Below are positions 12,051 to 43,358 of a stretch of 46,246 nucleotides of DNA, one piece after another. Each line of letters starts with the position of its first letter. The first letter of the stretch is position 1. The position numbers and the translations under genes were made by a program. This DNA is from Candidatus Kuenenia stuttgartensis (GTDB taxonomy: Bacteria > Planctomycetota > JAKEIC01 > DYIT01): assembly GCA_020723505.1 (NCBI GenBank), contig DYIT01000016.1, forward strand, positions 1 through 46,246, read 5' to 3'. A model generated the notes under the pieces. It ran no database searches and had not been told where the DNA came from. It worked only from the letters and a program-made list of their open reading frames with translations.

Positions 12051-12114
12051 GCACGCTCCCCGAAATCCTTACCGATTCACCCTCGCCCCTTTCACCACCA
12101 GACAATCTTGTAAG

Positions 12115-12186
12115 AGCTAGCGGTCGGACTCGAACCGACAGCCTGCGGTTTACAAAACCGCTGCTCCGCCATTGAGCTACGCTAGC
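12115..12186 (-). tRNA. tRNA-Thr(UGU)
   Basis: A complete cloverleaf reads on the minus strand: acceptor GCTAGCG/CGCTAGC, D-stem GCTC/GAGC, anticodon stem GCGGT/ACCGC with loop TTTGTAA (anticodon TGT), variable AGGCT, and T-stem GTCGG/CCGAC with loop TTCGAGT. No CCA is encoded. Its 5' end faces the integrase gene 88 bp away, so the locus is the probable integration site, although prophages normally abut the 3' end. Confidence 0.95.
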
Positions 12187-12273: not shown

Positions 12274-13359
12274 TCAGAATGGCGACTTCTTCATCTCCTC
12301 GTCTTCCTGCGACGAGATGACGTGCGCGTATCTCTCCGTGGTCTTGATGGAAGCATGGCCGGCCCACTTCTGCACTTGCCGCAGACCTACGCCGCTTATG
12401 AGCAGGTGGGAGATGAAGTCGTGGCGGAAGAGATGCCAGTTGCAGGGAGGCAGGCCGGCGCGCTTGAGAGCCCGATTCAAAGCGCGGTCCTCTTCCCGCT
12501 TGAGCTGGGGAATGAGCTTGCCCTTCCGCTCGGCCGGCGGCGTTGCCTCGAGGGCCTGGTGCAGCGCCGGCGAGATTGGAATCACTCTCCCCCGCTTCGA
12601 TTTGGTAATCTCGCCGGGAAAGGTTATCCGATTGTGCTGCAGGCTTATCCATGACCATTCGGCTGCGATGAGCTCTCCAATGCGAGCGCCCGTGCCCAGG
12701 GCTATTCTGACCGCTCTCTCGAGCCAGGGCCCTCGCTCTGAATATTTTATATCAAATTCGCGGCATGCCTGCATTATCTTTTCAATCTCTCCGAGCTCGT
12801 GAATCGTGGGCTCCTTGATGACCTCCCTCAGCTTCTTGATCCCGGTCAGAGGATTCTCGGAAGCCAGGTTGTTCTCGATGCACCAGTTGAAGAACCGATG
12901 CAGGACCTCACGATGAACATTGTGGGTCCTGGGACTCCAGGGTTTCTTCCTGGATTGCAGAGCCCAACCCGTCCGGGTGAGGCCTTCCTGGAAGTAGACC
13001 CTCAATGCCTCGAGGTTCCAGGCCTCGAGCGACGTGGCCTTCAGGATGCTCAGGACGTTGTACAGGACGGTCTTTATTCTCCTGACGTACTTCGGCGTGT
13101 GCCTGGGCTCGACGAATTCCATGTACTTCCGCACGGTCTCGCCGGCCTTGCCGCGGTGCTGGATGGGTGCCAGGCCTTCGGAGCGGCGCTTGTCCACGTA
13201 GACGTCGCGCCACATCTCGGCCTCGATGCGGGCGGCGGTCGCGCGGGACGGCTTCTCCTTGGTGTGGAGCGAGCGCCACCGCTGCTTCTCTTTCCCCTCC
13301 TCGAGGTAGGAGATGCGGATGTACCAGTTCCTGCGGCCTTGGGGGCGGATTAGAGGCAA
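12274..13359 (-). CDS. int: Phage tyrosine recombinase (integrase)
   Basis: A 361 aa lambda-type integrase that would recombine attP with a chromosomal attB. The N-terminal ~80 residues are the arm-binding/AP2-like part ('NWYIRISYLEEGKEKQRW'), residues ~85-185 the SAM-like core-binding domain, and ~190-350 the catalytic domain. Visible catalytic elements are the Arg in TGARIGELIAAEW, HLFRHDF (H-x-x-R), GHAS and the nucleophile region ERYAHV (Tyr). The start is TTG at 13359 with AAGGAT about ten bases upstream; no better start exists. It is the last gene of the leftward prophage block, next to tRNA-Thr. Confidence 0.93.
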   Translation of the reverse strand: MPLIRPQGRRNWYIRISYLEEGKEKQRWRSLHTKEKPSRATAARIEAEMWRDVYVDKRRSEGLAPIQHRGKAGETVRKYMEFVEPRHTPKYVRRIKTVLYNVLSILKATSLEAWNLEALRVYFQEGLTRTGWALQSRKKPWSPRTHNVHREVLHRFFNWCIENNLASENPLTGIKKLREVIKEPTIHELGEIEKIMQACREFDIKYSERGPWLERAVRIALGTGARIGELIAAEWSWISLQHNRITFPGEITKSKRGRVIPISPALHQALEATPPAERKGKLIPQLKREEDRALNRALKRAGLPPCNWHLFRHDFISHLLISGVGLRQVQKWAGHASIKTTERYAHVISSQEDEEMKKSPF

Positions 13360-13440: not shown

Positions 13441-14304
13441 TCATTCAAGATAGAGTTTTTTTAATAATAATGCTGCTTGATATTCAGCCCCAAGAAAGTC
13501 AACTCTAAATAGCGCAGACGTAGCTATGGTTTTTTGATGTTCGGTAAGAGCGTGGGATGTCCCATAGCATATCGTCGTTCTGGGACAAGTACCATTGAAC
13601 ATTTCTCTCATTATTTGTTCATGATAACCAAACCCAATAAATATTAATTTTGTCGCCGCTTTGATAATTTGCTTTACTACCTCTGGGATTGTTTCTGCGA
13701 ATCCAAGCAATTGTTTTTCTGCCGAAAACACCGTCTTGTTATTGGGATTGGCCCCGTAGGCTACTAAATTTCTATCACCGAGATCCCCATATACATGCTG
13801 TTTTTGTACCATCATTACTATTCTGTTTATCCTGTTGGCATCTGCGTCAGAGTAATTATAATGGATATATTTATCAAAGAAATACTCTAGCGATCTATCA
13901 TAATTAAATGTAATAATGCTCAAATTGGAAGGATTGAATTCTTTGTGATTTAATATTTCAAACATTCTTGCATATGTTTTAGTGGCATCGAATAACATTT
14001 CTGCATTTCTACGCTCCACTTCTAATAACAATTTCTTGATGGCATATGTAGCTATCTTTGTGAGATTTTGTTTGACTCCAATAAGCTGATCGATTGTTTT
14101 ATGAGTTGTTCTATTAAGTGTTTCGATAAAATCTTGGATCTGCACTTTAGGGATTCCTGCTTCTACTAAAATATCCTTGTCGTTTTCTTGAGATAGCGAT
14201 TTAACAATCTGGCTTTTCAATTCATTCCCTAGCGGAAAGCCATATTCCTGATTGGACCCAGCCCCTAATACCCAAACTGTTTTATCGTTATAAGAAAGTT
14301 CCAT
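13441..14304 (-). CDS. Stand-alone SIR2-like domain protein (probable NAD-consuming defence protein)
   Basis: A 287 aa single-domain SIR2-like (SIR2_2-type) protein. N-terminal 'VWVLGAGSNQEYGFPLGNEL' is the nucleotide-binding GAGxS..YGxPLG motif (residues ~11-30). 'SIITFNYDRSLE' (~128-139) holds the family N-x-D motif, 'HVYGDLG' (~170) supplies the active-site-type His, and 'KLIFIGFGYHEQI' (~216) is the FGxG strand. Relatives such as ThsA, DSR and SIR2-APAZ deplete NAD+ during phage infection. The strong GGAGGG Shine-Dalgarno lies 4 nt before the ATG. No sensor or helicase partner is fused, so an adjacent gene may be the trigger. The gene is A+T-rich compared with phage structural genes, which points to recent acquisition. 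Confidence 0.82.
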   Translation of the reverse strand: MELSYNDKTVWVLGAGSNQEYGFPLGNELKSQIVKSLSQENDKDILVEAGIPKVQIQDFIETLNRTTHKTIDQLIGVKQNLTKIATYAIKKLLLEVERRNAEMLFDATKTYARMFEILNHKEFNPSNLSIITFNYDRSLEYFFDKYIHYNYSDADANRINRIVMMVQKQHVYGDLGDRNLVAYGANPNNKTVFSAEKQLLGFAETIPEVVKQIIKAATKLIFIGFGYHEQIMREMFNGTCPRTTICYGTSHALTEHQKTIATSALFRVDFLGAEYQAALLLKKLYLE

Positions 14305-14329
14305 TTTCCCTCCTGTCTAAGAAAGCAAA

Positions 14330-15007
14330 TCAATCCTTCTTGGTTATCGCTACATTGACCTGATATTCGACATACTTCCTCACCCTCCCCTTCCTCTCCT
14401 CCACCTGCCGGTCAATCACGGCCGCGGTCTTCCAGCTGACTTTTAGGGCGGTCCGCCGGAACCGCATCAGCTCCTCGATATCCATGCCGAGGAGATCCAT
14501 TATTTCCTTCGGGCAATCCTCTGCGATGATTCTCAAGCTGCGCGGCTCCATGCCGAGCTCGAAGGCTTTCTGCCGGCAGTACCAGCCGTGGCTCTGCTGG
14601 ATGCCGCTTCCGTACTGCTTCGAGCAGAATCTCACCGATGGCGTCTGGTGATTGCAGAGGTGGCAGAGATGCTTCAGGAATATGAGGTGGCTGCTTATCT
14701 CGACGCCTACCGAAGCTTGGCTGTTGGCCAGGTAGTGAACCAGAGCCCGGGGGAAGTCCCGGCTGCTCAGGACGAATTCCTTCTCGGGATTATCTTTCAT
14801 GACGGGCTCCGGGCTTGCCCCCGCCATGCGGAACACCAGGTAATTCTCAATCGCTTTCCGCGCGCACTCGCAGAAGGTAATCGGGCTCTGGAGGTCCTGC
14901 CTGAACCCGATGAAGGCGCCGTAGTGGCCGGGGTAGTAGACCCAGGGGGAGGGAAGATCCTCCTCCCGGGCGATGGTGTTGTCTCTAAAAGCTACTCGAA
15001 GGGCCAT
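14330..15007 (-). CDS. Conserved hypothetical protein with zinc-finger-like Cys cluster
   Basis: About 225 aa from the ATG at 15007 (MALRVAF); the frame extends 33 nt further, but that part overlaps an upstream STAS-like coding remnant whose stop lies at 15009-15011. A central 'LKHLCHLCNHQTPS' and the later Cys of 'RFCSKQYGSG' look like a Cys4 or Cys3His metal site, followed by a conserved-looking 'SHGWYCRQKAFELGMEP' and a helical C-terminus. I do not know the function. It lies 25 nt upstream of the SIR2-like gene on the same strand and is therefore a candidate partner for it. Confidence 0.7.
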   Translation of the reverse strand: MALRVAFRDNTIAREEDLPSPWVYYPGHYGAFIGFRQDLQSPITFCECARKAIENYLVFRMAGASPEPVMKDNPEKEFVLSSRDFPRALVHYLANSQASVGVEISSHLIFLKHLCHLCNHQTPSVRFCSKQYGSGIQQSHGWYCRQKAFELGMEPRSLRIIAEDCPKEIMDLLGMDIEELMRFRRTALKVSWKTAAVIDRQVEERKGRVRKYVEYQVNVAITKKD

Positions 15008-15008
15008 T

Positions 15009-15120
15009 CTACTGCATCCCCAGCCACTTCCTGGCTTCATTTATATCGAAGAAGGACTTCACCCTGGACTGGTCGACATTGGAGGAGGAGATGCCTATCC
15101 CTTCTGCCAAAGCGTATTTC
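15009..15120 (-). pseudogene. 3' remnant of a second STAS-like gene, truncated by the GIY-YIG gene
   Basis: Between the GIY-YIG gene and the next gene, the minus strand encodes '...SKYALAEGIGISSS..' and '..VKSFFDINEARKWLGMQ', then a stop. The last 15 residues have the form of a STAS/SpoIIAA-like C-terminus and parallel 'KVFIEAGDAMKWLEAED' in the intact gene at 15536. The frame overlaps the last ~25 nt of the GIY-YIG coding region and has no start. It looks like the 3' piece left when the GIY-YIG gene arrived. Confidence 0.6.
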
Positions 15121-15535
15121 GAGCATAATTCTTGTCGTTTCCTGGATAACATTTCTTTCCCAGATGACGGCTGGGAACAGATCCGTTTAGTGTGCCCTGG
15201 ACATGAACAATTAGAAGCGATTCAACCGCTTCGATATATGAATCTTCCACAGAACTATCAAAGTGATACCAACTCACATTATCCCATGCATGTGAAATCC
15301 ATCTGCGCGCGTGAATATCTAGGCGCTTTGCAATAGGATTTTCCCCCTTGAGTGCCTTTCCAATGTAAACAGGATTTCTACCTTTATATAGAATATAAAT
15401 ACCACGAGCACCTTCAAGGGGGGGTTTCTTTCCGTACCATGAACGTTCCGCATTCCAAACAACCTGTTTTTTCGTGACAGTGAATAGATCTTCCCTTTGC
15501 CAGAACTCTCCGAATCGCGTAATCAATTTCTTCAT
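15095..15535 (-). CDS. GIY-YIG domain nuclease
   Basis: A 146 aa protein with 'RGIYILYKGRNPVYIGKAL' at about residues 44-62, the GIY...YIG pair spaced as in the family, followed by 'KRLDIHARRWISHAWDNVSWY', which carries the conserved Arg and His region. Glu in 'SYIEAVESLLI' (~108) is the likely metal ligand. Such small enzymes act as homing, restriction or repair nucleases. The ATG overlaps the stop of the upstream STAS-like gene (TAAATG), and GGAGG lies inside that gene's end. Its other side cuts into a second STAS-like gene, which fits insertion as a mobile nuclease. Confidence 0.85.
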   Translation of the reverse strand: MKKLITRFGEFWQREDLFTVTKKQVVWNAERSWYGKKPPLEGARGIYILYKGRNPVYIGKALKGENPIAKRLDIHARRWISHAWDNVSWYHFDSSVEDSYIEAVESLLIVHVQGTLNGSVPSRHLGKKCYPGNDKNYARNTLWQKG

Positions 15536-15910
15536 TTAATCCTCCGCCTCCAGCCACTTCATCGCGTCGCCCGCTTCGATGAAGACCTTGATGTCCAGCC
15601 CCGCCATCTGCGAGTACGCCGCCCCCATCCTCGAAAGCCCATACTGCACGTCCGAGGATACGAGCGCGGCGCATTTCCTGATGTAGGTCCCTTTGTGCTT
15701 GGCAAGAAACACTCCCATTTTTCGAACTTGTTCATGGGTCCTCATTTCAAAGGACCTGGAGCCCGTCACGTCAATCAAGAACATGGCATCTTTGGGATAT
15801 GTCGGCTTTGTTATCTCTTGGAGGAAGGAGGCTTTCAGCTCTTCCTGGGTGTACTCGCCGGTCAGCTCTAGCAAGACCAAGTTGCCGTCGTAATGGTATT
15901 TGATGGGCAT
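15536..15910 (-). CDS. STAS/SpoIIAA-like protein
   Basis: A 124 aa protein with the alternating beta-alpha pattern of STAS domains: 'NLVLLELTGEYTQEEL', 'DAMFLIDVTGSRSFE' (the position of the SpoIIAA phosphorylation-loop strand), 'KCAALVSSDVQYGLSRM' and C-terminal 'IKVFIEAGDAMKWL'. STAS proteins bind nucleotides or partners such as anti-sigma factors. Here it belongs to the leftward cargo operon, 15 nt after a small gene and overlapping the GIY-YIG start. Single-domain STAS genes of this form are usually chromosomal, so its presence beside phage cargo is odd. Confidence 0.7.
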   Translation of the reverse strand: MPIKYHYDGNLVLLELTGEYTQEELKASFLQEITKPTYPKDAMFLIDVTGSRSFEMRTHEQVRKMGVFLAKHKGTYIRKCAALVSSDVQYGLSRMGAAYSQMAGLDIKVFIEAGDAMKWLEAED

Positions 15911-15925
15911 GCCGCAGATCCCGCT

Positions 15926-16171
15926 CTATTCTTTCCCCAACCAGGAAATCTTCTTCCTTGCCGCCTTCTCCGCTTCCTCCAGGGACTTGAACATCTTCGG
16001 ATCAGACAAGTCATCCACCGGCACCCACATTACCTTTCGGTGAGCAGCCCTGCTCCCGACGATTTCAACCTTCCGCTCCTCCTGGAAGTAAATCTTCTGG
16101 GCTTCCTCTTGGAGGAACAAGACTCGGTTCTCCTCGGTTGGAGAGTAGATTTTGTGGATGGTTGCTGCCAT
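15926..16171 (-). CDS. Small hypothetical cargo protein
   Basis: An 81 aa charged, soluble protein with no recognised domain: a helical N-terminal half (RVLFLQEEAQKIYFQEER), a central beta-like 'RKVMWVPVDDL' and a C-terminal helix with many Lys and Glu. Its start codon overlaps the stop of the upstream PD-(D/E)XK-like gene, which indicates translational coupling. Confidence 0.65.
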   Translation of the reverse strand: MAATIHKIYSPTEENRVLFLQEEAQKIYFQEERKVEIVGSRAAHRKVMWVPVDDLSDPKMFKSLEEAEKAARKKISWLGKE

Positions 16172-16665
16172 TATTTTCTCGGTGGTTGTACCCTAATTAG
16201 ATGTATTTTCCTGACCTCATTTTCGTTATATTTGTTTAAGTATGTTTTCAGATATTTCTCCAGTGAGCTCTGCTTGCTCATATATATCATAATTCCATAA
16301 TTCACAGGTGATCGGGCTAGTCTTGTATATTTAACTAATTTCTTTATATCATTCTTTATCCCGTCAACTTGGCCGTTTGGTTTCACCTCGATAGCAACAG
16401 CACCATATCTCGGATCTACCTTAAAGGACGATGTCATCTTATAAATTACAACATCTGCCTTCCATGCAGTACTAGGAATGAAGTCTTCTATCGAGCATGT
16501 CCATTCTTCTCCAACATATCGGGAAATATGATCCCATACTATTGCTTGGAGAGTGTACTCTGTCATCTTGATTTGAATTAATCTACTATCTTTTTCAACT
16601 GCCTCTTTCAATTTAAATTTGATATAGTCATGCAGTAACTTCTTCCTAGATTCATTTATTTCCAT
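16171..16665 (-). CDS. Restriction-endonuclease-fold (PD-(D/E)XK-like) protein
   Basis: A 164 aa protein. 'TAWKADVVIYK' (Asp at ~71) followed some 17 residues later by 'GAVAIEVKPNG' (E-x-K, ~92-94) is the layout of a PD-(D/E)XK nuclease core: metal-binding Asp, then Glu-x-Lys. An N-terminal helix and C-terminal 'YTRLARSPVNYGIMIYMS' complete an alpha-beta fold. It probably cuts DNA or RNA, but the substrate cannot be told. The gene is A+T-rich and lies 18 nt after the DUF4041 gene in the same leftward operon, with TAATG coupling to the next gene. Confidence 0.7.
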   Translation of the reverse strand: MEINESRKKLLHDYIKFKLKEAVEKDSRLIQIKMTEYTLQAIVWDHISRYVGEEWTCSIEDFIPSTAWKADVVIYKMTSSFKVDPRYGAVAIEVKPNGQVDGIKNDIKKLVKYTRLARSPVNYGIMIYMSKQSSLEKYLKTYLNKYNENEVRKIHLIRVQPPRK

Positions 16666-16683
16666 TCCCGTACAACTTTCTTA

Positions 16684-18297
16684 TTAATTATCCTCTATAT
16701 TTTCATTTATTATTAATGGGACAGAATCTAATTCTAATTGTCTATTAATCCAAGCTTCTTTATTAGCAGGATTTTCATTAATAGCTTTCTCTATTGCTAA
16801 GCTCTCTTTGAATTCACGGGCTTCTGCTATCATAGTCCAGTGAGCATTTACTCCCAAACTATCTATTTCCTCCTTGATGTGGGTTAGATTGACTTTGAAG
16901 AATTCTTTTCTATGGTTAACTTTGTTTAGCTGGCTCAACACGAAATGCTTATGTAAGGCATTTTCAAGGGCTGGTGCATCTTCACTATAAATCATTGCAT
17001 GCACATCAAATTCAAATGGTACGCTTGAATCGCCAAGCTCCCGAACACGATCAATTGGCTCAAGTCTTCTTGTAAGACCAATTTTAAATACGTCCTCTCC
17101 GAAAGAGCCGATGTTAGATATAATATAAACATGCCCCCTCTTTGTTTGCTCAGCCATTGATTTTGCCCTTTGATTTCGTTCTTCAGCATCCTTCAGTTTG
17201 AGTTGCAGTTCCTCAAGTTGTTTTTCATATTTAGCCTTCTGTTCAGCGTTTGCGGCATCAATCTGCTTCTGAGCTTTCTCCATCGCTTTCTTTATAATAT
17301 CTTCTTCCTTCTCGGCATCCTTTATTGCCCGTTCCAGTTCCTTGCGTGCTTTTTCCTCCTCCCTTATTTGATCCTTTATTCTCCTCTGCTCTGCTTGCTC
17401 TTCTACCTTGAGTTGTTGAGCAACTGCTGCCCACCTTAATTCATCCAATCGTGCTTCTAAATACTCTTCGGTTATTCTTGCATCACGAAAAGCCCGAGCC
17501 TGAAAATTAATTTGTGTGAAAGCATCCCTAATTTCCTGAGACAACTTTCCTGCATTATCTGATTTAACACGTGACAGGATGGAATCTACTTTTCCATTAA
17601 AAGCATCGATAACAAATTCAATAGCAGTATCACGACGATTAGCTTCTACATATTCGCATTTAGCTGCAGTACCATTTGATATCATAACAGAGGATCTATC
17701 CCTCGCTACTCTCAGTAATTGACCGGCTTCTTTGTGGCTAAAATCGTCAGCGAGATCGTCAAGCAAGCTATGGCTTGGCTTAAGGTATTCATAGCCATAC
17801 CCCTCTATAATATTCTTCATGGCTTTTGCGGTCTTTTCATATAAAGTAGCTTTACTCATTGCATCGAAAGCACTGCCGGCAATATCATGAGCCTTTATTT
17901 TTGCAGCCTCAACTATTTCAATTGATTTCAGAGTCGATGTGTTTAGTCGAGCGGTCGCTTCCTCATTAAAGTTCCTCGCCTTTTCTTTTGCATCAGCAAT
18001 AATTTGCTTTGCATCAGCAAGTGATGCGTCCATAGAAGCATGGGCCTGATTTAAAATCCTTGCTGCTTCTTCATCTGCATTAGCAACAACTTCCCATTTA
18101 GATAGCCGTCTATTTTCTGTCGAAAGCTTATCTATTTGAATTTGCCAATCTTCTCTTTCTGAATCGTGTTTATTTCTTAGCGAAAATATATTAGTATTTA
18201 ATCTATCGAATTCCTTCAAATATTTGAAATGATAAAGAAGTAGCAAAACGACAATAATAGATTCACAGAAGAGAAGAAATAATAGAAAGATTTCCAT
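16684..18297 (-). CDS. Membrane-anchored coiled-coil protein with DUF4041 and T5orf172 (GIY-YIG-related) domain
   Basis: About 537 aa from ATG 18297, which has AAGG upstream; earlier ATG 18318 and TTG 18330 are weaker. An N-terminal transmembrane helix (residues ~3-25, 'IFLLFLLFCESIIVVLLLL') is followed by coiled coil to ~150, a DUF4041-like core (~155-290), a long Lys/Glu coiled coil (~290-390) and a C-terminal T5orf172/MUG113 domain: 'RGHVYIISNIGSFGEDVFKI', 'GLTRRLEPIDRVRELGD', 'FDVHAMIYSEDAPALENALH' and 'NHRKEFFKV'. The domain belongs to the GIY-YIG superfamily (Tyr, Arg and Glu visible), so it is probably a nuclease held at the membrane. It follows the repressor in the lysogenic operon. 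Confidence 0.8.
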   Translation of the reverse strand: MEIFLLFLLFCESIIVVLLLLYHFKYLKEFDRLNTNIFSLRNKHDSEREDWQIQIDKLSTENRRLSKWEVVANADEEAARILNQAHASMDASLADAKQIIADAKEKARNFNEEATARLNTSTLKSIEIVEAAKIKAHDIAGSAFDAMSKATLYEKTAKAMKNIIEGYGYEYLKPSHSLLDDLADDFSHKEAGQLLRVARDRSSVMISNGTAAKCEYVEANRRDTAIEFVIDAFNGKVDSILSRVKSDNAGKLSQEIRDAFTQINFQARAFRDARITEEYLEARLDELRWAAVAQQLKVEEQAEQRRIKDQIREEEKARKELERAIKDAEKEEDIIKKAMEKAQKQIDAANAEQKAKYEKQLEELQLKLKDAEERNQRAKSMAEQTKRGHVYIISNIGSFGEDVFKIGLTRRLEPIDRVRELGDSSVPFEFDVHAMIYSEDAPALENALHKHFVLSQLNKVNHRKEFFKVNLTHIKEEIDSLGVNAHWTMIAEAREFKESLAIEKAINENPANKEAWINRQLELDSVPLIINENIEDN

Positions 18298-18360
18298 GGT
18301 AACCTTAATATTAATCATTGAGTAAAGCAAAGAAGTAGGAGTCGCGACTTTCTATTCCAT

Positions 18361-18984
18361 CTACTTCTCGTACACTGCCCCCACCACCTTGTACATCCGC
18401 GGTCGCCTGGTCCGGACAACGGTCGGGAGTGAGAGTTGGGTGTTCACGCTGGCGAACTGGTGCTCCTTGCCTTCTTTCGTCAGGTAGTACCGCTTGAAGT
18501 ACCACTCCCCCTCCTGCCCAACGTCGTCCAGGTCCACGACGACGAGGTTGCCGCTCACAACTTCCCTTTCCGGGCAGGCCAGCACGAACTGGCCGGTCCT
18601 TACGACGGGTTCCATACTATCGTCTTTCACCCGGATTGCTACGCAATTCTTGAGGGAAATCTTTTCGCCAGGGGGGAGCGCGCATCCTCCGTACCGGGCC
18701 GAGGCCCCGGCGGTGGCCACGACGGGGAAGGTGTGGTCCGGGATGATATCCGTGACGGGTTCCTGGCCGGTCAGCAAGTAATCGACGGTCACATTGAGGG
18801 CGCGGGCGAGCTTAAGGAGGGTTGGCCCTGTGCCTTGTGAATTTCCGGACTCAATCCGGTCAATTGTCTGCTGAGGGACACCAGACATTTTTTGCAGTTC
18901 GACCTGGGTTAAATTTCTCTCTTTCCTTAGGCGTGCCAAAGAGTTAAAAAAATTACACGGAAACGAGTTTTTAGGCCTTGACAT
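18361..18984 (-). CDS. Phage repressor: HTH_XRE plus S24/LexA-like peptidase
   Basis: A 207 aa CI-like lysogeny repressor from ATG 18984; the longer frame would need TTG 19041 and would overlie the divergent promoter. The helix-turn-helix lies at about 15-65 (LTQVELQKMSGVPQQTIDRI). The C-terminal S24 domain has the TAGAS region as probable self-cleavage site, the nucleophile in 'DDSMEPVV' (~130) and a Lys in 'EWYFKRYY' about 41 residues later as the probable general base. RecA-stimulated self-cleavage, and so SOS induction, is expected from the family. It starts on top of the -35 box of the rightward promoter and heads the leftward cargo/int block. Confidence 0.9.
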   Translation of the reverse strand: MSRPKNSFPCNFFNSLARLRKERNLTQVELQKMSGVPQQTIDRIESGNSQGTGPTLLKLARALNVTVDYLLTGQEPVTDIIPDHTFPVVATAGASARYGGCALPPGEKISLKNCVAIRVKDDSMEPVVRTGQFVLACPEREVVSGNLVVVDLDDVGQEGEWYFKRYYLTKEGKEHQFASVNTQLSLPTVVRTRRPRMYKVVGAVYEK

Positions 18985-19005
18985 TAACACTATTTCGTGT
19001 ATAAT
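18978..19005 (+). promoter_or_regulatory. Rightward early promoter (PR-like) with overlapping operator
   Basis: TTGACA (18978-18983), a 16 bp spacer and TATAAT (19000-19005) are perfect sigma-70 boxes. An inverted repeat ACAC-TATTTC-GTGT (18987-19000) fills the spacer, and a related sequence ACACGGAAACGAGT lies at 18955-18968, so both may be repressor operators. The repressor start codon overlaps the -35 box. This should drive the lytic operon that begins near 19041. Confidence 0.8.
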
Positions 19006-19040
19006 ATCCTTCGACAACGCAATTGAAAGCGAGGTCAACA

Positions 19041-19250
19041 ATGGTCATCTCCGAGCAGAACGTCAGAACGGGCGCCTTGGAATCCCTTCTTGAAGCTTCC
19101 TCGCTTTCAGGATCGCGTTGTCACCCGGGGCGCCCTCTGACCTTTATTTCTCCAACACCCCCGTCTCTCTCGGGTTTCGGTCTGGAAGAATTATATCCTG
19201 CAAATCGCCGCAAGTCCAGTCCCCTAAACAGGGAAAATTATGAGGGATAA
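19041..19250 (+). CDS. Possible small first gene of the lytic operon
   Basis: A 69-codon frame with ATG preceded by AGCGAGG, starting 36 nt after the promoter -10 box, in the position of cro. The composition (Ser/Pro/Gly-rich, no HTH) is not clearly protein-like, so it may instead be untranslated leader. The stop lies 5 nt before the next gene's GTG. Confidence 0.35.
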   Translation: MVISEQNVRTGALESLLEASSLSGSRCHPGRPLTFISPTPPSLSGFGLEELYPANRRKSSPLNRENYEG

Positions 19251-20022: not shown

Positions 20023-20279
20023 TGACGAACCACAGCATGCCTACGTGTCGGGATTGTATCCACCGCGAATACCACGGTGATCGCTGGGGATACGGCGGCG
20101 GGACGCCCGCTGAATCCGTGTGCCTGGTCATCGAGCGGGGGGAGGGCGCCGAGCGCGAGGACGCCGAAGCATTCCGGGCGGGCGAGGCATGCAGCTGCAA
20201 GGCATTCGAGTTCAGCGAGGAACCGAGGCCGAAATTGAGGGTGAAGAGGACGTTCCCAGGATACCGGCCCTGTAGATAG
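20022..20279 (+). CDS. Small Cys-rich early protein
   Basis: 85 aa from ATG 20022 (an in-frame GTG lies 3 nt earlier), with GGGGGAG just upstream. 'TCRDCIH' and later 'CSCKAFEF' give a C-x2-C plus C-x-C arrangement that probably binds zinc. Phage early regions often carry such small proteins; the function is unknown. Its last 14 nt overlap a tRNA-like sequence. Confidence 0.65.
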   Translation: MTNHSMPTCRDCIHREYHGDRWGYGGGTPAESVCLVIERGEGAEREDAEAFRAGEACSCKAFEFSEEPRPKLRVKRTFPGYRPCR

Positions 20280-20341
20280 ACGGAAATCGCCCGGAGCCTG
20301 GCCGGCACCCGGGAGACGCGGGTTCGACGCCCGCCGGGGCC
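20266..20341 (+). tRNA. tRNA-like sequence (degenerate, Ala GGC-like)
   Basis: GGCCCTG (20266-20272) and CGGGGCC (20335-20341) form a 7 bp acceptor stem with one G-U pair. GCGGG-TTCGACG-CCCGC is a perfect T-arm, and CCTGG-CCGGCAC-CCGGG a 5 bp anticodon arm with GGC in anticodon position. However, position 33 is C rather than U, and the D-arm is not foldable in the usual way. It is probably a decayed tRNA or a tRNA mimic. It starts inside the previous gene. Confidence 0.4.
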
Positions 20342-20367
20342 ATGAGATTCAAAACAAGGAGGAGAAC

Positions 20368-32983: not shown

Positions 32984-33024
32984 CTCGGAAACTAGGTACA
33001 CAAGCAAGAGATCGAGGAGGAGAA

Positions 33025-33756
33025 ATGCTCTGGCTTGATGGTGTTCTCTCGATTCCCACGGTTGGTCTTCTGACTGCAACTTCTTTTTCCAGAGCTGTTT
33101 CCCTTTCCACTCTAGTTGGTAAATATGCAGATTCAATCAACAAAGAAGACAAGAAGGTTAGCCTCGGACAGAGGAAATCTTTCCAGTATCAGATTTCAAC
33201 TCCAGAGGGACTTCTCGTCACTTTTACTCCTAATGATTTTCTTTTTTCTTATACTTATCAGAGAACGGAAGAGAAGCAACCCGGGGAATTACCTGTTTCC
33301 CGTTTCGACAATCTCAAGTCATATTCTGAATTGCTCGATGATATTATTGGCCATTTAACCGGATTGGCTACGATTATTCCCGTGACCGAACTTGAAGTTG
33401 AAAGAATCGGTATCGTAGCAGATGCCGATCTCAAGAAGGACCGTGTACCTCCGGGAGTTAAGAGCCTTCTTGAACATTGCTCTAAGCCTTTTGGCGAACT
33501 TGAGGTTCTGGAATCTAACTTTGTAAGAAAGATTAAGACATCCGAAATTTGTTTCGATCGCTGTCACGTAACTATTCACATGAACAACACCGCACAAATC
33601 ACTAATTTCTCCCTAGTACTTGATTGGCAGCGATTCGAAAAGAAGCGTTTCACATCCGATTCGGCTTTCAGAGAGTATTTGTTGCAATGTAAGGCATCAG
33701 CCACGGCCTATTTTGAAAAATTTGCACGAGGGGAGGGATTCCATGAAGCCTTTTAA
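33025..33756 (+). CDS. Cassette gene 1, unknown function
   Basis: 243 aa from ATG 33025, preceded by GAGGAGGAGAA; the longer frame to 32974 lacks such a site. Soluble alpha-beta protein with beta-rich stretches ('SFQYQISTPEGLLVTFTPND', 'LVLDWQRFEKKRF') and a helical end (LLQCKASATAYFEKFARG). The spacing of a central 'VERIGIVAD' strand reminds me of the sporadic TIGR04255 family, but I am not confident. The gene is A+T-rich and has a different codon style from the phage genes on both sides, which suggests lateral gain. It overlaps cassette gene 2 by 14 nt. Confidence 0.7.
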   Translation: MLWLDGVLSIPTVGLLTATSFSRAVSLSTLVGKYADSINKEDKKVSLGQRKSFQYQISTPEGLLVTFTPNDFLFSYTYQRTEEKQPGELPVSRFDNLKSYSELLDDIIGHLTGLATIIPVTELEVERIGIVADADLKKDRVPPGVKSLLEHCSKPFGELEVLESNFVRKIKTSEICFDRCHVTIHMNNTAQITNFSLVLDWQRFEKKRFTSDSAFREYLLQCKASATAYFEKFARGEGFHEAF

Positions 33757-34297
33757 CGCAATTGCCGTTGGTGCTGCTGCTGCGACCGCTCTCAGCGCAA
33801 CCGCATCACATTCACATCTTCAAGAGGTTATTTCTGATACGACTATAAAAATATCATTCAGGCCACATGAATCTCCCACTAGTATCCTATCCCAATTGGG
33901 CGAGACTGAGGATCTCCAAAGCGCGACCTCTGACAGATCTCAAACGCAGAAAACCAGTCTGGACTCCCAGCTAAAACCTGATGTCGGATCAGACGTTGTC
34001 AGAAGGAACACCTTGAGGATATTCGCCGCAAGTGAGAAAACTATAATTGCACAGCGGAATAACCTAGTAGATAAAAAGTATTCAGCAGGATTGACCAAAA
34101 GCGAGCAGTTAGATTTGGATTATGCGACATGGAAGTTGGATGTTATAGACGATGCTAAGCATGGAGATGCAATCGACTCTTTTAAACCACTTGTAGATGC
34201 CCATCGTAAAATTGGATTATCAATTCATAGTACTCTAGTCGACTTGAAGGAATTAATAATCAGGGAGAATCAGAAAAGTGGTAAAAGGAGGAGATAG
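33743..34297 (+). CDS. Cassette gene 2, unknown protein with hydrophobic N-terminus
   Basis: 184 aa from ATG 33743 with GGGAGGGATTCC upstream, inside the end of gene 1. Residues ~5-22 are small and hydrophobic (AIAVGAAAATALSATA) and could be a membrane anchor or weak export signal. The rest is polar, with a helical C-terminal part (ERTIIAQRNN-like, 'LDLDYATWKLDVIDDAKHG') and a basic end (KSGKRRR). No family recognised. It overlaps the HNH gene by 20 nt, so the three genes are probably translated together. Confidence 0.7.
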   Translation: MKPFNAIAVGAAAATALSATASHSHLQEVISDTTIKISFRPHESPTSILSQLGETEDLQSATSDRSQTQKTSLDSQLKPDVGSDVVRRNTLRIFAASEKTIIAQRNNLVDKKYSAGLTKSEQLDLDYATWKLDVIDDAKHGDAIDSFKPLVDAHRKIGLSIHSTLVDLKELIIRENQKSGKRRR

Positions 34298-35048
34298 GGA
34301 CAACCCAAACCTGCCGATTGTCAAAAGGCAGGAATTAGGTGAACGTTCAGACTATAACGAATTCAAAGACGAGCTTCGATATGACTTCTTCTACGCTTGT
34401 GCTTATTGTACTATCACAGAGACGGAAGCCCAAGGCATTGGGTTCGAGATAGACCACTACAAACCGAGAGAGAAGTTCCACCAGGATAGAAACAAGTACT
34501 CCAATCTAATGTGGTCCTGCGAGAAATGTAACGGAGCAAAGAGCGACTACTTTCCCTCAACTGAACAGCAACGGAAAAACTACGTAGTAATGCGTAGTGA
34601 CGAGGAGGATCCTTCTGCGCACTATCGAGTTGAGGATTTCCAACTTAAAGGTATCGACAACAAGGGGGAGTTCAATATTGAGAGATTGAATCTTAATAGA
34701 TTGATGTTGCGCGAGCTGCGGCAGATAAGAGCGAAAATGTGGGAGGCAAATGGGTTCATAATAAATGGAATATTAGAGATACAACGGATTGGTATAGATG
34801 CGCTGCCAGGCTCTCAAAAAGCTGTGTTCTGGAGAATGAGAGTATCCCTGCTTAATGACCTGGCTGAACTAGCCGATAACACAGAGGAGAGTATCAGGAG
34901 AATGAATAAATCTCCTCTGCTTAACGGTATAAATGACAATAATCATGAAATGAAGAGAAGGAGGTATCTCAAGAAGATAAAAGCCTTGTCAACGGAAAAT
35001 ACTAGTCTCCCTCTCAAAGGCATGGTGAATAAATTGAATAAAAGATAA
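34278..35048 (+). CDS. HNH endonuclease (cassette gene 3)
   Basis: 256 aa from GTG 34278. The HNH/McrA-like core lies at about residues 36-95: zinc pair 'CAYC', catalytic 'FEIDHYKPREKF' (Asp-His), 'YSNLMWSCEKCNGAK' (Asn and second zinc pair). The C-terminal 160 residues are helical and may bind a partner or target. Together with the two coupled unknown genes it could form a nuclease-effector system. The cassette sits between the DNA-metabolism and packaging modules, a common spot for phage cargo. Confidence 0.85.
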   Translation: MVKGGDRDNPNLPIVKRQELGERSDYNEFKDELRYDFFYACAYCTITETEAQGIGFEIDHYKPREKFHQDRNKYSNLMWSCEKCNGAKSDYFPSTEQQRKNYVVMRSDEEDPSAHYRVEDFQLKGIDNKGEFNIERLNLNRLMLRELRQIRAKMWEANGFIINGILEIQRIGIDALPGSQKAVFWRMRVSLLNDLAELADNTEESIRRMNKSPLLNGINDNNHEMKRRRYLKKIKALSTENTSLPLKGMVNKLNKR

Positions 35049-35153
35049 ACCCGCACCGTAATGATCGTAATAATCTTGACTGATTAGACACATCTGAGAA
35101 CAGGCAATTCAAGATGTCAAAGGCACCAAAATTACAAGAATCATTCAAGAAAA

Positions 35154-35172
35154 CCCCACCCCTTGGGCGGGG
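35154..35172 (+). terminator. G+C hairpin after the cassette
   Basis: CCCC-A-CCC-CTT-GGG-C-GGGG forms a 7 bp stem with one mismatch about 105 nt past the HNH stop. No U-run follows, so termination is uncertain, but it marks the cassette boundary. Confidence 0.4.
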
Positions 35173-35219
35173 AGGGTCACTTCCTAGGTTTTCGAAACAG
35201 CAATCACATCAAGATTCGG

Positions 35220-35292
35220 TTAATAACTGTACACCGTATGCTATATATTCTCTTAGTAAGTCTTGTATTATTTAATAAGATATACTAAGAGA
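35220..35292 (+). promoter_or_regulatory. Candidate promoter followed by a 10 bp inverted repeat
   Basis: TTAATA (35220) and TATATA (35242) are 16 bp apart. Just after them TCTCTTAGTA (35249-35258) and TACTAAGAGA (35283-35292) form a perfect 10 bp inverted repeat around an A+T-rich 24 nt loop with a further inner stem. It ends 16 nt before the next start codon and could be an operator, or a leader hairpin controlling that gene. Confidence 0.5.
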
Positions 35293-35308
35293 GATAGAAG
35301 GAGAAGAG

Positions 35309-35623
35309 ATGATTCATCCTGATAACCGGGAGGCGATGAATATGTTCGAGGACGCTTTTGAAGGCATTCTAAGGATTGGGGAAGAAGCGACTGGTGTAAA
35401 AATAATAAGAGTTGATGATGCCACTATATTCCGGATTGATTCATTTCCGGAAGACATAATGAATGTGGAGAGAAGAAATTTCAATGCAAACCGTGAGAAG
35501 GGCGAAATAATTTGTCCTCGGGGTTACAAAGTACATCTCTCCGATAGTAACATCCTTGACATTTTCATTGACGCGCTTAAAAGATGCGATACAAAGGGTT
35601 GTTGTGGGTGTGGATTCAAGTAA
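35309..35623 (+). CDS. Small acidic hypothetical protein
   Basis: 104 aa from ATG 35309 with AGAAGGAGAAGAG upstream. Acidic alpha-beta protein ('VKIIRVDDATIFRIDSFPED'), ending in a Cys cluster (DTKGCCGCGFK). A+T-rich like the cassette. It appears to have its own promoter and leader inverted repeat. Function unknown. Confidence 0.65.
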   Translation: MIHPDNREAMNMFEDAFEGILRIGEEATGVKIIRVDDATIFRIDSFPEDIMNVERRNFNANREKGEIICPRGYKVHLSDSNILDIFIDALKRCDTKGCCGCGFK

Positions 35624-35663
35624 AATGGTCTTGCGAGGGGAAAGGCAGATGGTCAAGAGATAG

Positions 35664-35864
35664 ATGCCGAGACCGGCAATGCCGAGGGTAATCCGATACA
35701 CCTACTGTGATGCCTGCGGATACGCCGAGAAGAGCGTTTTGAAGCTGAATGAACGCCATCTGAGAAGGAAATGTCCATCCTGCGGCTCAATGAAGTTCAT
35801 CGTCAGGCGCACGTCGACACGGTCAAATCCCCTTCGAATAAAAAAAATAAACTCATCCCCCTGA
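35664..35864 (+). CDS. Small zinc-ribbon protein before the packaging genes
   Basis: 66 aa (ATG 35664 or 35679). 'TYCDACGYAEKSVLK' and 'RKCPSCGSMKFIV' form a zinc ribbon, followed by a basic tail. Such small proteins often precede terminase genes and can be late regulators. Function unknown. Confidence 0.55.
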   Translation: MPRPAMPRVIRYTYCDACGYAEKSVLKLNERHLRRKCPSCGSMKFIVRRTSTRSNPLRIKKINSSP

Positions 35865-35921
35865 AATTGAATTAAAAACAACTCATCAAAATACCTGCGG
35901 TGAAATCCATCTTCTGAAACC

Positions 35922-35983
35922 GTTCTAATTTAGAACCAAAGTCCCGCGCCTGCATTTGCCTTTCGCGCTTTCATGCATATATA
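35922..35983 (+). promoter_or_regulatory. Candidate late promoter and palindromic site
   Basis: GTTCTAA-T-TTAGAAC (35922-35936) is a perfect interrupted palindrome. TTGCCT (35956-35961), 16 bp and TATATA (35978-35983) could be -35/-10 boxes. The structural genes begin about 80 nt later, so this 190 bp gene-free gap is the natural place for late-gene control. Confidence 0.4.
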
Positions 35984-36061
35984 TCCCTGTGTCGGGTAAT
36001 CGTATGCCCACGATCCACCACATCGGGCGGAACCTGGGCCGAGGTGCCTTCGGAAAGCGAC

Positions 36062-38344: not shown

Positions 38345-40549
38345 ATGAAGCAGTTCATGCAGAAAGCGCTGAACGCATTCTCGGCGATAGCCGGGGGCGG
38401 GGGCTCCGCCAAGACCGCCACGTTCCAAGGCGAGCAGGTCTCGACCGTCATGTCTCTGCTGAGGCGGTACGGTACGAACAAGCTCGAGTACCCGTACAAG
38501 GAGCACGTCTGGGTGTACGCCTGTATCCGCGTGCTCGCCCTTAGCCTGTCCGCGCTGCCGGTCGTATTCTTCCGCGGCGACCGCAAGGATCCGGAGCGCG
38601 TGGAGGACAAGGTCCTCGATGCCCTCCTCGAGAACCCCTGCCAACAGTGCTCGAGCATGGAGGAGCTGTGGCAGTTCACGTCCATCTACTTGGACTCGGA
38701 AGGGGAGTGCTTCTGGATTCTGGTCGGCCGGGACGCCCCCGGGAAAGACCCCGAGCTCATCCTCCCCCGGTCCGGCAAGCTGTTCGAGCCGGTGAAGGAA
38801 CGGGGCTGGATTGTAGGCTGGAAGTACAACGCCGCCACGCCACTGGACCTGGGCTGGAACCAGGTCATCCAGTTCAAGTACCCGAATCCCTACGACCAGG
38901 ACCGCGGGCTCTCGCCGTTCGACGCGGTCAAGCAGAGCGCGGAATCGGATTACAAGGCCCTGCAGTTCAACAACGCATTTTTCGAGAACGGCTGCGTGGT
39001 GAGCGGCACGCTCGAGTCCGAGCAGAAGCTCTCGCCGGAAACCGCCCGCCGCATGCGCCGGCAGTTCGAGCAAGTGCACGGCGGCGCGAAGAACTCATTC
39101 AGGATTGCGGTCCTCGAGCAGGGCGTGAAGTTCACGCCGATAAACATCTCGCACCGGGACATGGAGTTCGGCAAGCAGAGGGAGATTTCCCGGAACGAGA
39201 TAATTTCCGCCTATGGGTGCAACAAGCACGTGGTGGGGCTCACCGAGGACTACAACAAGGCCAACTCCTACGAGGCGGAGCGGGCCTTCCACGTGCGCGG
39301 CGTGCGGCCCAGGGGGAAGCTCATTGCCGGCACCCTCTGGGCGAATTGGCTCAAGTACCGCCCTTCTCGAACCTGGCTGGAGTTCGACGACTCGAAGCTC
39401 GAGTGCCTTCAGGCGGACAAGGAGCAGCAGAGCCGCATCGCCGAGGCCTTTTTCCGCATCGGGTTCACCCGGTCCGCGGTAAATGAAATCCTCAGCCTCG
39501 GCTTCGATTTGTCCAAGGACCCTTACAAGGACACGGCGTATCTGCCCCTGTCCTACATCCCGGAGCATCTCATCGAGGACAAGGTGAAGGCCGGCGGACT
39601 TCTTGGCGGGTTCGGGGAAGGGGGCAAGGTCTCGGGGGCCGAGCAGCTCCTTCAGGCGATGCTCCTGTATTCGGCTGCCATGGGCAGGACAATCCGGCCG
39701 GCGGAGGAGCGCCTGGTGCTCACCACGGCGCAGGAACGCATGCTGGCCGCCGGCGCCGATGGCAAGACCGCGAAGCTTTCCACGGCTGACACGCCCGAGT
39801 TGCCGGAATACCTCTTCGACGACAAGGAGATGTTCAAGATTCTGAAAGCCGGCCTGGAGCCCATATTCGAAGACGTGCTGCGCCAGTCACTGAAAACCCT
39901 CGCCGGCGAAATAGGGGGCGGGGAAATCGAGTATGACCCGGACGCCGATGTCTGGAAGCGCTTCTTCGATCGGAAGTGGCTCAAGGTGAAGACCATCCCG
40001 GAGCGGCACCACGAGGCGCTGCGGCGCATCATCGGCGATGACATCTCGGACGGCCGGACCCTGCAGGAAATCGCCGCGGACCTCAAGAGCCGCTTCGACA
40101 CGTCCTCGACGTACATGGCCCAGCGCATCGCAAGGACCGAGGTGATGGACGTGCTGGACGGGTCCAGGTTCGAGGGCATGAAGGCGGAGGGCATCGAGTA
40201 CCACGCCTGGGTGACGGCAGGCGACGCGGAGGTGAGAGAGAGCCATGCCCGCCTCGACGGAGCCGTGGCGAAGATTGGGGAGGAATTCCCCGGCTCCTCT
40301 CTCAGATACCCCCACGACCCCAAGGCGCCGGCAGGCGAGGTTGTTCAGTGCCGGTGCACGTGCAGGCCCGTGGTGGACGAGGAGGAGATAGAGGCCGGCA
40401 AGGCGGTGAATGGGGACCTGTGGGCCAAGTCCGTGGAGAGCATCGCGGACAAGGCCGAGCTCCGGGCCTACAGGGTTTGCAGGTCCTGGTTCAGGCGCGT
40501 GCTGAAGGAAACGCTCGAATCGTTGGAGGCTGCCAATGCTGCGAGTTGA
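38345..40549 (+). CDS. Portal protein fused to MuF-type head morphogenesis domain
   Basis: 734 aa. Residues ~1-420 are an HK97/SPP1-like portal ('WVYACIRVLALSLSALPVVF', 'QVIQFKYPNPYDQDRGLSPF', 'NEIISAYGCNKHVVGL'). The C-terminal part, ~560-690, is the Phage_Mu_F/SPP1 gp7 domain ('AQRIARTEVMDVLDGSRFEG', 'HAWVTAGDAEVRESHARLDG', 'CRCTCRP'). Most phages encode the two as adjacent genes; the fusion ties the portal ring to a minor head protein. Overlaps the protease gene by 14 nt. Confidence 0.92.
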   Translation: MKQFMQKALNAFSAIAGGGGSAKTATFQGEQVSTVMSLLRRYGTNKLEYPYKEHVWVYACIRVLALSLSALPVVFFRGDRKDPERVEDKVLDALLENPCQQCSSMEELWQFTSIYLDSEGECFWILVGRDAPGKDPELILPRSGKLFEPVKERGWIVGWKYNAATPLDLGWNQVIQFKYPNPYDQDRGLSPFDAVKQSAESDYKALQFNNAFFENGCVVSGTLESEQKLSPETARRMRRQFEQVHGGAKNSFRIAVLEQGVKFTPINISHRDMEFGKQREISRNEIISAYGCNKHVVGLTEDYNKANSYEAERAFHVRGVRPRGKLIAGTLWANWLKYRPSRTWLEFDDSKLECLQADKEQQSRIAEAFFRIGFTRSAVNEILSLGFDLSKDPYKDTAYLPLSYIPEHLIEDKVKAGGLLGGFGEGGKVSGAEQLLQAMLLYSAAMGRTIRPAEERLVLTTAQERMLAAGADGKTAKLSTADTPELPEYLFDDKEMFKILKAGLEPIFEDVLRQSLKTLAGEIGGGEIEYDPDADVWKRFFDRKWLKVKTIPERHHEALRRIIGDDISDGRTLQEIAADLKSRFDTSSTYMAQRIARTEVMDVLDGSRFEGMKAEGIEYHAWVTAGDAEVRESHARLDGAVAKIGEEFPGSSLRYPHDPKAPAGEVVQCRCTCRPVVDEEEIEAGKAVNGDLWAKSVESIADKAELRAYRVCRSWFRRVLKETLESLEAANAAS

Positions 40550-42023: not shown

Positions 42024-43358
42024 ATGCCACCGAAACCCATGACCCCTGAGGAGAAGGCGGAGCACGACGCCGCCATCGCGCAGGTGAAGGAAATCTCCAC
42101 CGGTGTAGCCACGGCCCTCGTCGATGAGAAATTGGGGGCCGCGAAGACGTCTTTCGAAGCCGAACTGAAGAAGAAGACGGAGGCCCTCGAGCAGACCAAC
42201 AGCGAGCTGAAGGCCAAGGTCGAGGAGCTAGAGACCAAGTACAAGGGCGTGGCCCTCGTGGTGCCGGACGGCTCCAGAATCGAGGTCCCGGGGCGCAAGT
42301 TCTCGCTCGGCCGTGCGCTCTGGTACAAGCTCTCGGACAAGAGCCACTGCCCGTCCGAGTGCGAACTCGAGAAGAAGGTGCTGGACGAAACCGAGAAGAA
42401 GGCCATAGCTGAGGGCAGCCTGAACCCGGGCATCACCAAGGTGATGAACACCCAGGCCGGCACGCTCGGGTCCTTCCTGATGCCCGAGCAGTTCATCAAC
42501 GAGCTCATCGACGAACTCAAGGACCGCTTCCTCCTGGCGGAGCTCGGCGTGCAGTTCATGGAAGGCCTCACTGGCGCGCCGGTCCGCATCCCGACCAAGA
42601 CCTCCGGAACCACGGCTTACATGTTGTCCGAGAACGAGGCGCCGACGGCTTCGGAACTGGCGCTGGGCCAGGAGCTCATGGTCCCGCACACCATGGGCGT
42701 GCTGAGCAAGATCAGCAACCGGCTGAGCCTTCTCGCCCTGCCGAGCGTGGAGAGACTCCTGCGCAAGGACATCATCGAGAACATGCAGCTCAAGATGATG
42801 CAGCAGGCCTTCAGGGGCAAGGGCGTGAACAGCGAGGTCCTGGGGCTGACGAACCAGGCCGGGGGACTGAACACGGTGAACTGCGGAACGGGCGGCAACG
42901 GAGGGGCCATCGACATGGCCAAGCTGCACGCCTTCATCTCATCCGTCGAGCAGGACCTGGCGCTGAAGGATTCCGCGTGCTTCATATTCAACACGCGGAC
43001 CATCGATGTCATCCGCCAGCTCAAGGACCAGGAGAACCGGTACTTCTTCAGGCCGGACGCCTGGGATGCGGCGAAGCCCACGATTCTCGGGCATAGGTTC
43101 TTCACGACCAACCAGATACCCAACAACCTCACCGTGGGCGCGACGCCGAACTGCACGGAAATCTACTTCGGCGTGTTCTCGGAGATGATCGTGGGCATCT
43201 GGCGGAACATGGCCATCCGCATCCTGGACCAGGCCTCGGACAGCGCCGGCAACAACGCAGCCTTGAACGACCAGCTCTGGTTCCTGAGCTTCATGGACTT
43301 CGACATGTGCCTCAAGCACGACAAGTCCTTCGCAATCTCGACCGACTGCAGCTCGTAG
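42024..43358 (+). CDS. Major capsid protein, HK97 fold
   Basis: 444 aa. Residues ~1-75 form a Lys/Glu-rich coiled coil (KKKTEALEQTNSELKAKVEE), the scaffold-like delta segment that the upstream protease probably removes. The HK97 core follows from ~135: 'GSFLMPEQFINELIDEL', 'PVRIPTKTSGTTAYMLSEN', 'TMGVLSKISNRLSLLALPSV', 'QAFRGKGVNSEVLGLTN' and 'RFFTTNQIPNNLT'. AAAGGAAG precedes the ATG. Strong hairpins lie downstream. Confidence 0.93.
   Translation: MPPKPMTPEEKAEHDAAIAQVKEISTGVATALVDEKLGAAKTSFEAELKKKTEALEQTNSELKAKVEELETKYKGVALVVPDGSRIEVPGRKFSLGRALWYKLSDKSHCPSECELEKKVLDETEKKAIAEGSLNPGITKVMNTQAGTLGSFLMPEQFINELIDELKDRFLLAELGVQFMEGLTGAPVRIPTKTSGTTAYMLSENEAPTASELALGQELMVPHTMGVLSKISNRLSLLALPSVERLLRKDIIENMQLKMMQQAFRGKGVNSEVLGLTNQAGGLNTVNCGTGGNGGAIDMAKLHAFISSVEQDLALKDSACFIFNTRTIDVIRQLKDQENRYFFRPDAWDAAKPTILGHRFFTTNQIPNNLTVGATPNCTEIYFGVFSEMIVGIWRNMAIRILDQASDSAGNNAALNDQLWFLSFMDFDMCLKHDKSFAISTDCSS

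Follow-up and report, generated by a model that had tools for sequence, protein, structure and literature searches.

A prophage repressor-integrase interval with a SNIPE/PD-lambda-1 homologue and other, probably separately acquired, cargo genes

Seven genes lying between the repressor and the integrase of a prophage in Candidatus Kuenenia stuttgartensis very probably form a cargo hotspot, in which a homologue of SNIPE/PD-lambda-1 comes first and the remaining genes are separately acquired passengers, rather than one co-evolved system. The DNA analysed (46,246 nucleotides, hereafter the window) was one whole contig (C87) of a 207-contig draft genome. A full-length SNIPE homologue is now placed in the repressor-integrase slot, in a prophage of a bacterium with few sequenced relatives.

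The prophage occupied the window from about 12 kb rightwards; its capsid gene was close to the contig end, and the far end of the prophage fell outside the contig. The order rightwards was integrase, cargo block, repressor, and then a rightward CII-like regulator, early genes, portal (38345-40549) and major capsid (42024-43358). The downstream edge of the block was a tyrosine integrase (12274-13359, minus strand; Phage_integrase, E 2e-23) and its upstream edge a CI-type repressor (18361-19041, minus strand), identified using Pfam (HTH_3 and Peptidase_S24) and phrog_4 (transcriptional repressor). A tRNA-Thr gene located with ARAGORN (12114-12186, minus strand) adjoined the integrase and is likely the attachment site of the prophage; a search for a repeat of the phage-side end of this region, in the window and the rest of the genome, gave only matches to other tRNA-like stretches. 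The seven cargo genes, which an earlier sequence-only reading had described as co-directional and tight, were all recovered as open reading frames in the same places. All seven read on the minus strand; neighbouring genes overlap by 1 base in one case and are otherwise 0 to 54 bases apart.

A consensus scan gave a candidate leftward promoter for the repressor and cargo (19190-19218, minus strand; 10 of 12 bases, the count of such sites being near the chance level). The same type of scan gave a perfect TTGACA-16-TATAAT match on the plus strand (18978-19005), overlapping the start of the repressor gene, which is likely a rightward early promoter. A tRNA-Ala (GGC) was predicted in the prophage early region (20266-20342), overlapping the end of a small ORF. 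Ahead of the structural genes the GC-rich phage backbone was broken by a second A+T-rich stretch (33000-36000, 42-44% GC) with an HNH endonuclease gene (34278-35048) inside it.

The first cargo gene (16684-18297, minus strand) encodes a protein of 537 aa with an N-terminal membrane helix, DUF4041 and a T5orf172 (GIY-YIG) nuclease domain. It matched the PADLOC PD-Lambda-1 model at E 3e-112, and both Pfam domains were above cut-off (DUF4041, PF13250, E 1.7e-11; T5orf172, PF10544, E 3.3e-15). The helix was judged by hydropathy rather than by a dedicated transmembrane predictor, from a peak of 3.1 over residues 3-21 like that of the reference PD-lambda-1 protein. The reference was the deposited protein of phage PhiR26_1 annotated as PD-lambda-1, in which nine of the SNIPE residues numbered in PMC13190303 (Nature 2026) were checked and all match at those positions. 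Identity to the window protein was 43% over 336 aa in the C-terminal part of the reference, with the catalytic E414 aligned to E445; relatives in phages and genomes were 48-60% identical. The membrane-anchored DUF4041/T5orf172 protein proposed earlier was thus borne out, except that alignment with relatives placed its start most likely at ATG 18297, versus the TTG at 18330 given before. By these sequence comparisons the gene is a clear homologue of SNIPE/PD-lambda-1, a named single-gene defence.

SNIPE/PD-lambda-1 has been characterised experimentally in Escherichia coli as a single-gene defence (PMC13190303, PMC9519451). The protein is held at the inner membrane, its DUF4041 binds DNA and probably tape measure proteins, and its nuclease cuts phage DNA during injection and spares an induced resident prophage (PMC13190303), so that a prophage could carry SNIPE safely. 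By homology, the window protein would sit in the inner membrane, where DUF4041 would bind entering phage DNA and probably the tape measure protein, and the GIY-YIG domain would cut the incoming DNA, the resident genome being spared. The cargo would be read together with the repressor in the lysogen, and the SIR2 protein may deplete NAD+ on infection; the PD-(D/E)XK-like, small GIY-YIG and SIR2 genes would be separately acquired passengers among genes of phage composition.

Base composition at third codon positions (GC3) changed abruptly along the block. Values were 0.70 for the repressor, 0.31 for SNIPE, 0.35 for the PD-(D/E)XK-like gene, 0.72 for the 81 aa gene, 0.74 for the STAS-like gene, 0.37 for the GIY-YIG gene, 0.77 for the Cys-cluster gene, 0.32 for SIR2 and 0.80 for the integrase. 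Low GC3 (0.31-0.37) was thus found in four block genes in three separate stretches, and the other three (0.72-0.77) were near phage composition. The A+T richness noted earlier for much of the block is real but uneven, being confined to those four genes. Because GC3 alternates along the block, the pattern fits assembly by at least three separate insertions; base composition may, however, mirror the donor genomes rather than the number of insertion events.

Co-occurrence was surveyed at 152 other SNIPE loci (1.89 Mb) using profiles for SIR2, PD-(D/E)XK, GIY and STAS and single sequences for the Cys-cluster and 81 aa proteins. No SIR2, PD-(D/E)XK, Cys-cluster or 81 aa relative was found at any of the 152 loci by either kind of search. 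A STAS-like relative was present at one (L008, 0.5 kb downstream of SNIPE) and a distant GIY relative at another (L130, 4-5 kb away on the opposite strand). STAS, considered as a SNIPE partner on account of L008, was dropped, with one locus of 152. The cargo partners of the window were thus not recurrent at SNIPE loci, as befits a stand-alone gene, and among close SNIPE relatives the downstream neighbours varied by locus in size, spacing and strand. Unsampled relatives could carry the combination, the sampled genomes including no close relative of this one.

These results bear on the proposal that SNIPE acts together with several downstream genes, or with the whole block, as a single defence system, SNIPE sensing or cleaving at entry and the other nucleases and SIR2 backing it up. 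All of the genes are co-directional and tightly spaced, a 174 aa protein lies 21 bases downstream of SNIPE in its closest viral relative (L001), and L008 has its STAS-like gene downstream of SNIPE. Against this stand the missing SIR2 and PD-(D/E)XK homologues at SNIPE loci, the differing neighbours of close relatives, the steps in composition, and the sufficiency of SNIPE alone in E. coli (PMC13190303); a single system is very improbable. The unnamed multi-gene system suggested from the sequence was accordingly given up: its main gene belongs to a named single-gene defence, the set was not found together at the other SNIPE loci surveyed, and GC3 changes in steps. Prophage-borne defence cargo stood as a reading, since the repressor-integrase interval holds SNIPE and so one gene at least is very likely anti-phage; the combined system did not stand. 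Judged from composition and neighbourhoods, the block consists of separate pieces and did not evolve together as one system; in such a slot, close packing of co-directional genes says little about whether they belong to a single system.

The second cargo gene (16171-16665, minus strand; A+T-rich) encodes a PD-(D/E)XK-like protein of 164 aa with a D-x21-E-V-K motif. D71, E93 and K95 were kept in the single homologue found (34% identity), and no match was obtained in Pfam, PADLOC or the PDB, nor any relative in viral contigs or the phage collection. An AlphaFold model made without an alignment had a pLDDT of 41, too poor for use. The PD-(D/E)XK assignment made earlier is therefore kept as a putative one, from one motif and one homologue. 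An 18-base gap and similarly low GC3 join this gene to SNIPE, and the two could have arrived as a pair. A joint module of the two, with the small protein tuning SNIPE or contributing nuclease activity, would also agree with the small protein directly downstream of SNIPE in L001, but the homologue in another genome adjoins a HARE-HTH protein and not SNIPE, and no homologue was near the other SNIPE genes (152 loci), which makes such a module improbable.

The A+T-rich gene at 15095-15535 (minus strand) encodes a stand-alone GIY-YIG-type protein of 146 aa. Alignment with three relatives showed a GIY...VYIG motif and a conserved Glu, and it is related to GIY-YIG proteins elsewhere, although it had no Pfam match of its own. 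The family had matches in 8 of 392 genomes of the phylum, the present one included, and some members carry an additional N-terminal region; no relatives were found in viral contigs or the phage collection. Comparison of its profile with the SNIPE profile gave nothing, and hence no kinship of the two nucleases is claimed.

The last A+T-rich gene (13441-14304, minus strand) encodes a SIR2-like protein of 287 aa, as had been read from the sequence (Pfam SIR2_2, E 5.5e-7, above cut-off; PADLOC SIR2, E 1.8e-11). GAG, N134, R137 and H170 were invariant across an 11-sequence alignment, so that the protein has the SIR2 profile, the Gly motif, and the Asn and His expected of the catalytic site of a SIR2-type NADase. 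It is a plausible small NADase, and abortive NAD+ depletion on infection may reasonably be proposed. Fifteen other genomes of the phylum and a Rhizobium plasmid carried relatives, and in the neighbourhoods that were read no other gene of the block was present; viral contigs, the genome-contig scan and the phage collection gave no relative. In a mobile element of the same phylum (L195:2-4267) a SIR2 relative adjoins a serine recombinase, 0.8 kb from a GIY-YIG/RAMA gene.

The three genes of phage-like composition, all on the minus strand, gave few matches. The 124 aa protein (15536-15910) had been called STAS-like, a label that Pfam did not sustain: there was no STAS match, and DUF7793 was below threshold (E 0.046). 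It had matches in 6 of 392 genomes of the phylum, counting its own, where it occurs twice, and no relatives in the viral-contig search. The 81 aa reading frame noted before is present (15926-16171), with a weak PHROG match (E 1e-3). The Cys-cluster protein (236 aa, 14330-15040) matched phage family phrog_19778 (E 3.7e-23) and had no relatives in viral contigs or the phage collection; its AlphaFold model without an alignment (pLDDT 36) was too poor for use.

With few homologues and mostly no recognised system among them, the block genes other than SNIPE might all be passengers, decayed or neutral, that play no part in defence. All of the frames are open, however, the motif residues of SIR2 and GIY-YIG are intact, and SIR2 relatives lie beside a recombinase in another element too; we consider this somewhat unlikely. 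Conversely, at least one unassigned cargo gene, likeliest the 146 aa GIY-YIG or the 164 aa PD-(D/E)XK-like gene, might be a defence gene of an undescribed family, part of a layered lysogen immunity cassette with SNIPE and SIR2. This is a tentative suggestion, and we rate it as unlikely. The three A+T-rich inserts are good single-gene candidates for phage challenge.

Other positions of SNIPE-type genes were seen in the survey. Such a gene recurs in tail operons of prophages (for example L021:7635-8864 and L043:7467-8693, from IMG/VR), and about 20 viral contigs share the tail genes around it; in many of these the fifth gene upstream is tape measure-like. In the L021 copy T5orf172 was present and a membrane helix was recognised by eye, but DUF4041 was not matched. 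In phage ES18 (NC_006949.1, in L207) gp19, annotated 'possible moron', is of SNIPE type and precedes the tape measure gene by two genes. For a nuclease family that reportedly acts together with tape measure proteins, location in a tail operon is unusual. At L005:1717-5015 a SNIPE gene at the contig edge is followed on the opposite strand by two reverse-transcriptase-like genes, which by eye recall DRT3-type defence.

Among known systems, KomC of Kongming (PDB 8zsf), a solved NADase, resembles the window SIR2 protein as a small single-domain SIR2 protein and was matched by the family profile (E 2.8e-7). The relationship is distant, and unlike Kongming the block genes have no adenosine deaminase or HAM1-like partner domain in Pfam. 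The partners of KomC in Kongming (KomABC) are the deaminase KomA and the HAM1-like KomB; membership was rejected, neither domain being found in any block gene using Pfam (search of the block only). Compared with SNIPE of E. coli, the window protein has the same domain order (membrane helix, DUF4041, GIY-YIG of T5orf172 type) and keeps the catalytic Glu, whereas its N-terminal region is unrelated in sequence, as is usual for the family, and the W257 position is Arg. W257R is among the SNIPE changes associated with tighter binding to the Bas14 tape measure protein.

A same-strand repressor was upstream of SNIPE at 21 loci, 13 of which also had an integrase downstream (some near-duplicates). Phages 813R9 (annotated cI-DUF4041-int) and EJ-1 (cI-DUF4041-ORF2-int) have the three genes in the order and orientation of the window, but with one and two cargo genes, respectively, versus seven; in PLE3 the DUF4041 gene has the regulator on one side and the integrase on the other, with further genes intervening. 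SNIPE genes between repressor and integrase thus recur in unrelated phages, in a slot already known as a hotspot, and their recurrence across phages of very different hosts fits the spread of SNIPE as lysogeny cargo. The cI-integrase interval of a Vibrionaceae phage is a defence hotspot (Rousset et al. 2022, PMC9122126). The window likewise has variable cargo between a cI repressor and integrase, including at least one defence gene, and part of the cargo in those hotspots is known defence. It differs in phage and host and in its three alternating A+T-rich inserts, and its block, at 4.9 kb, is larger than the average P2 (3.2 kb) and P4 (2.6 kb) hotspots of that study.
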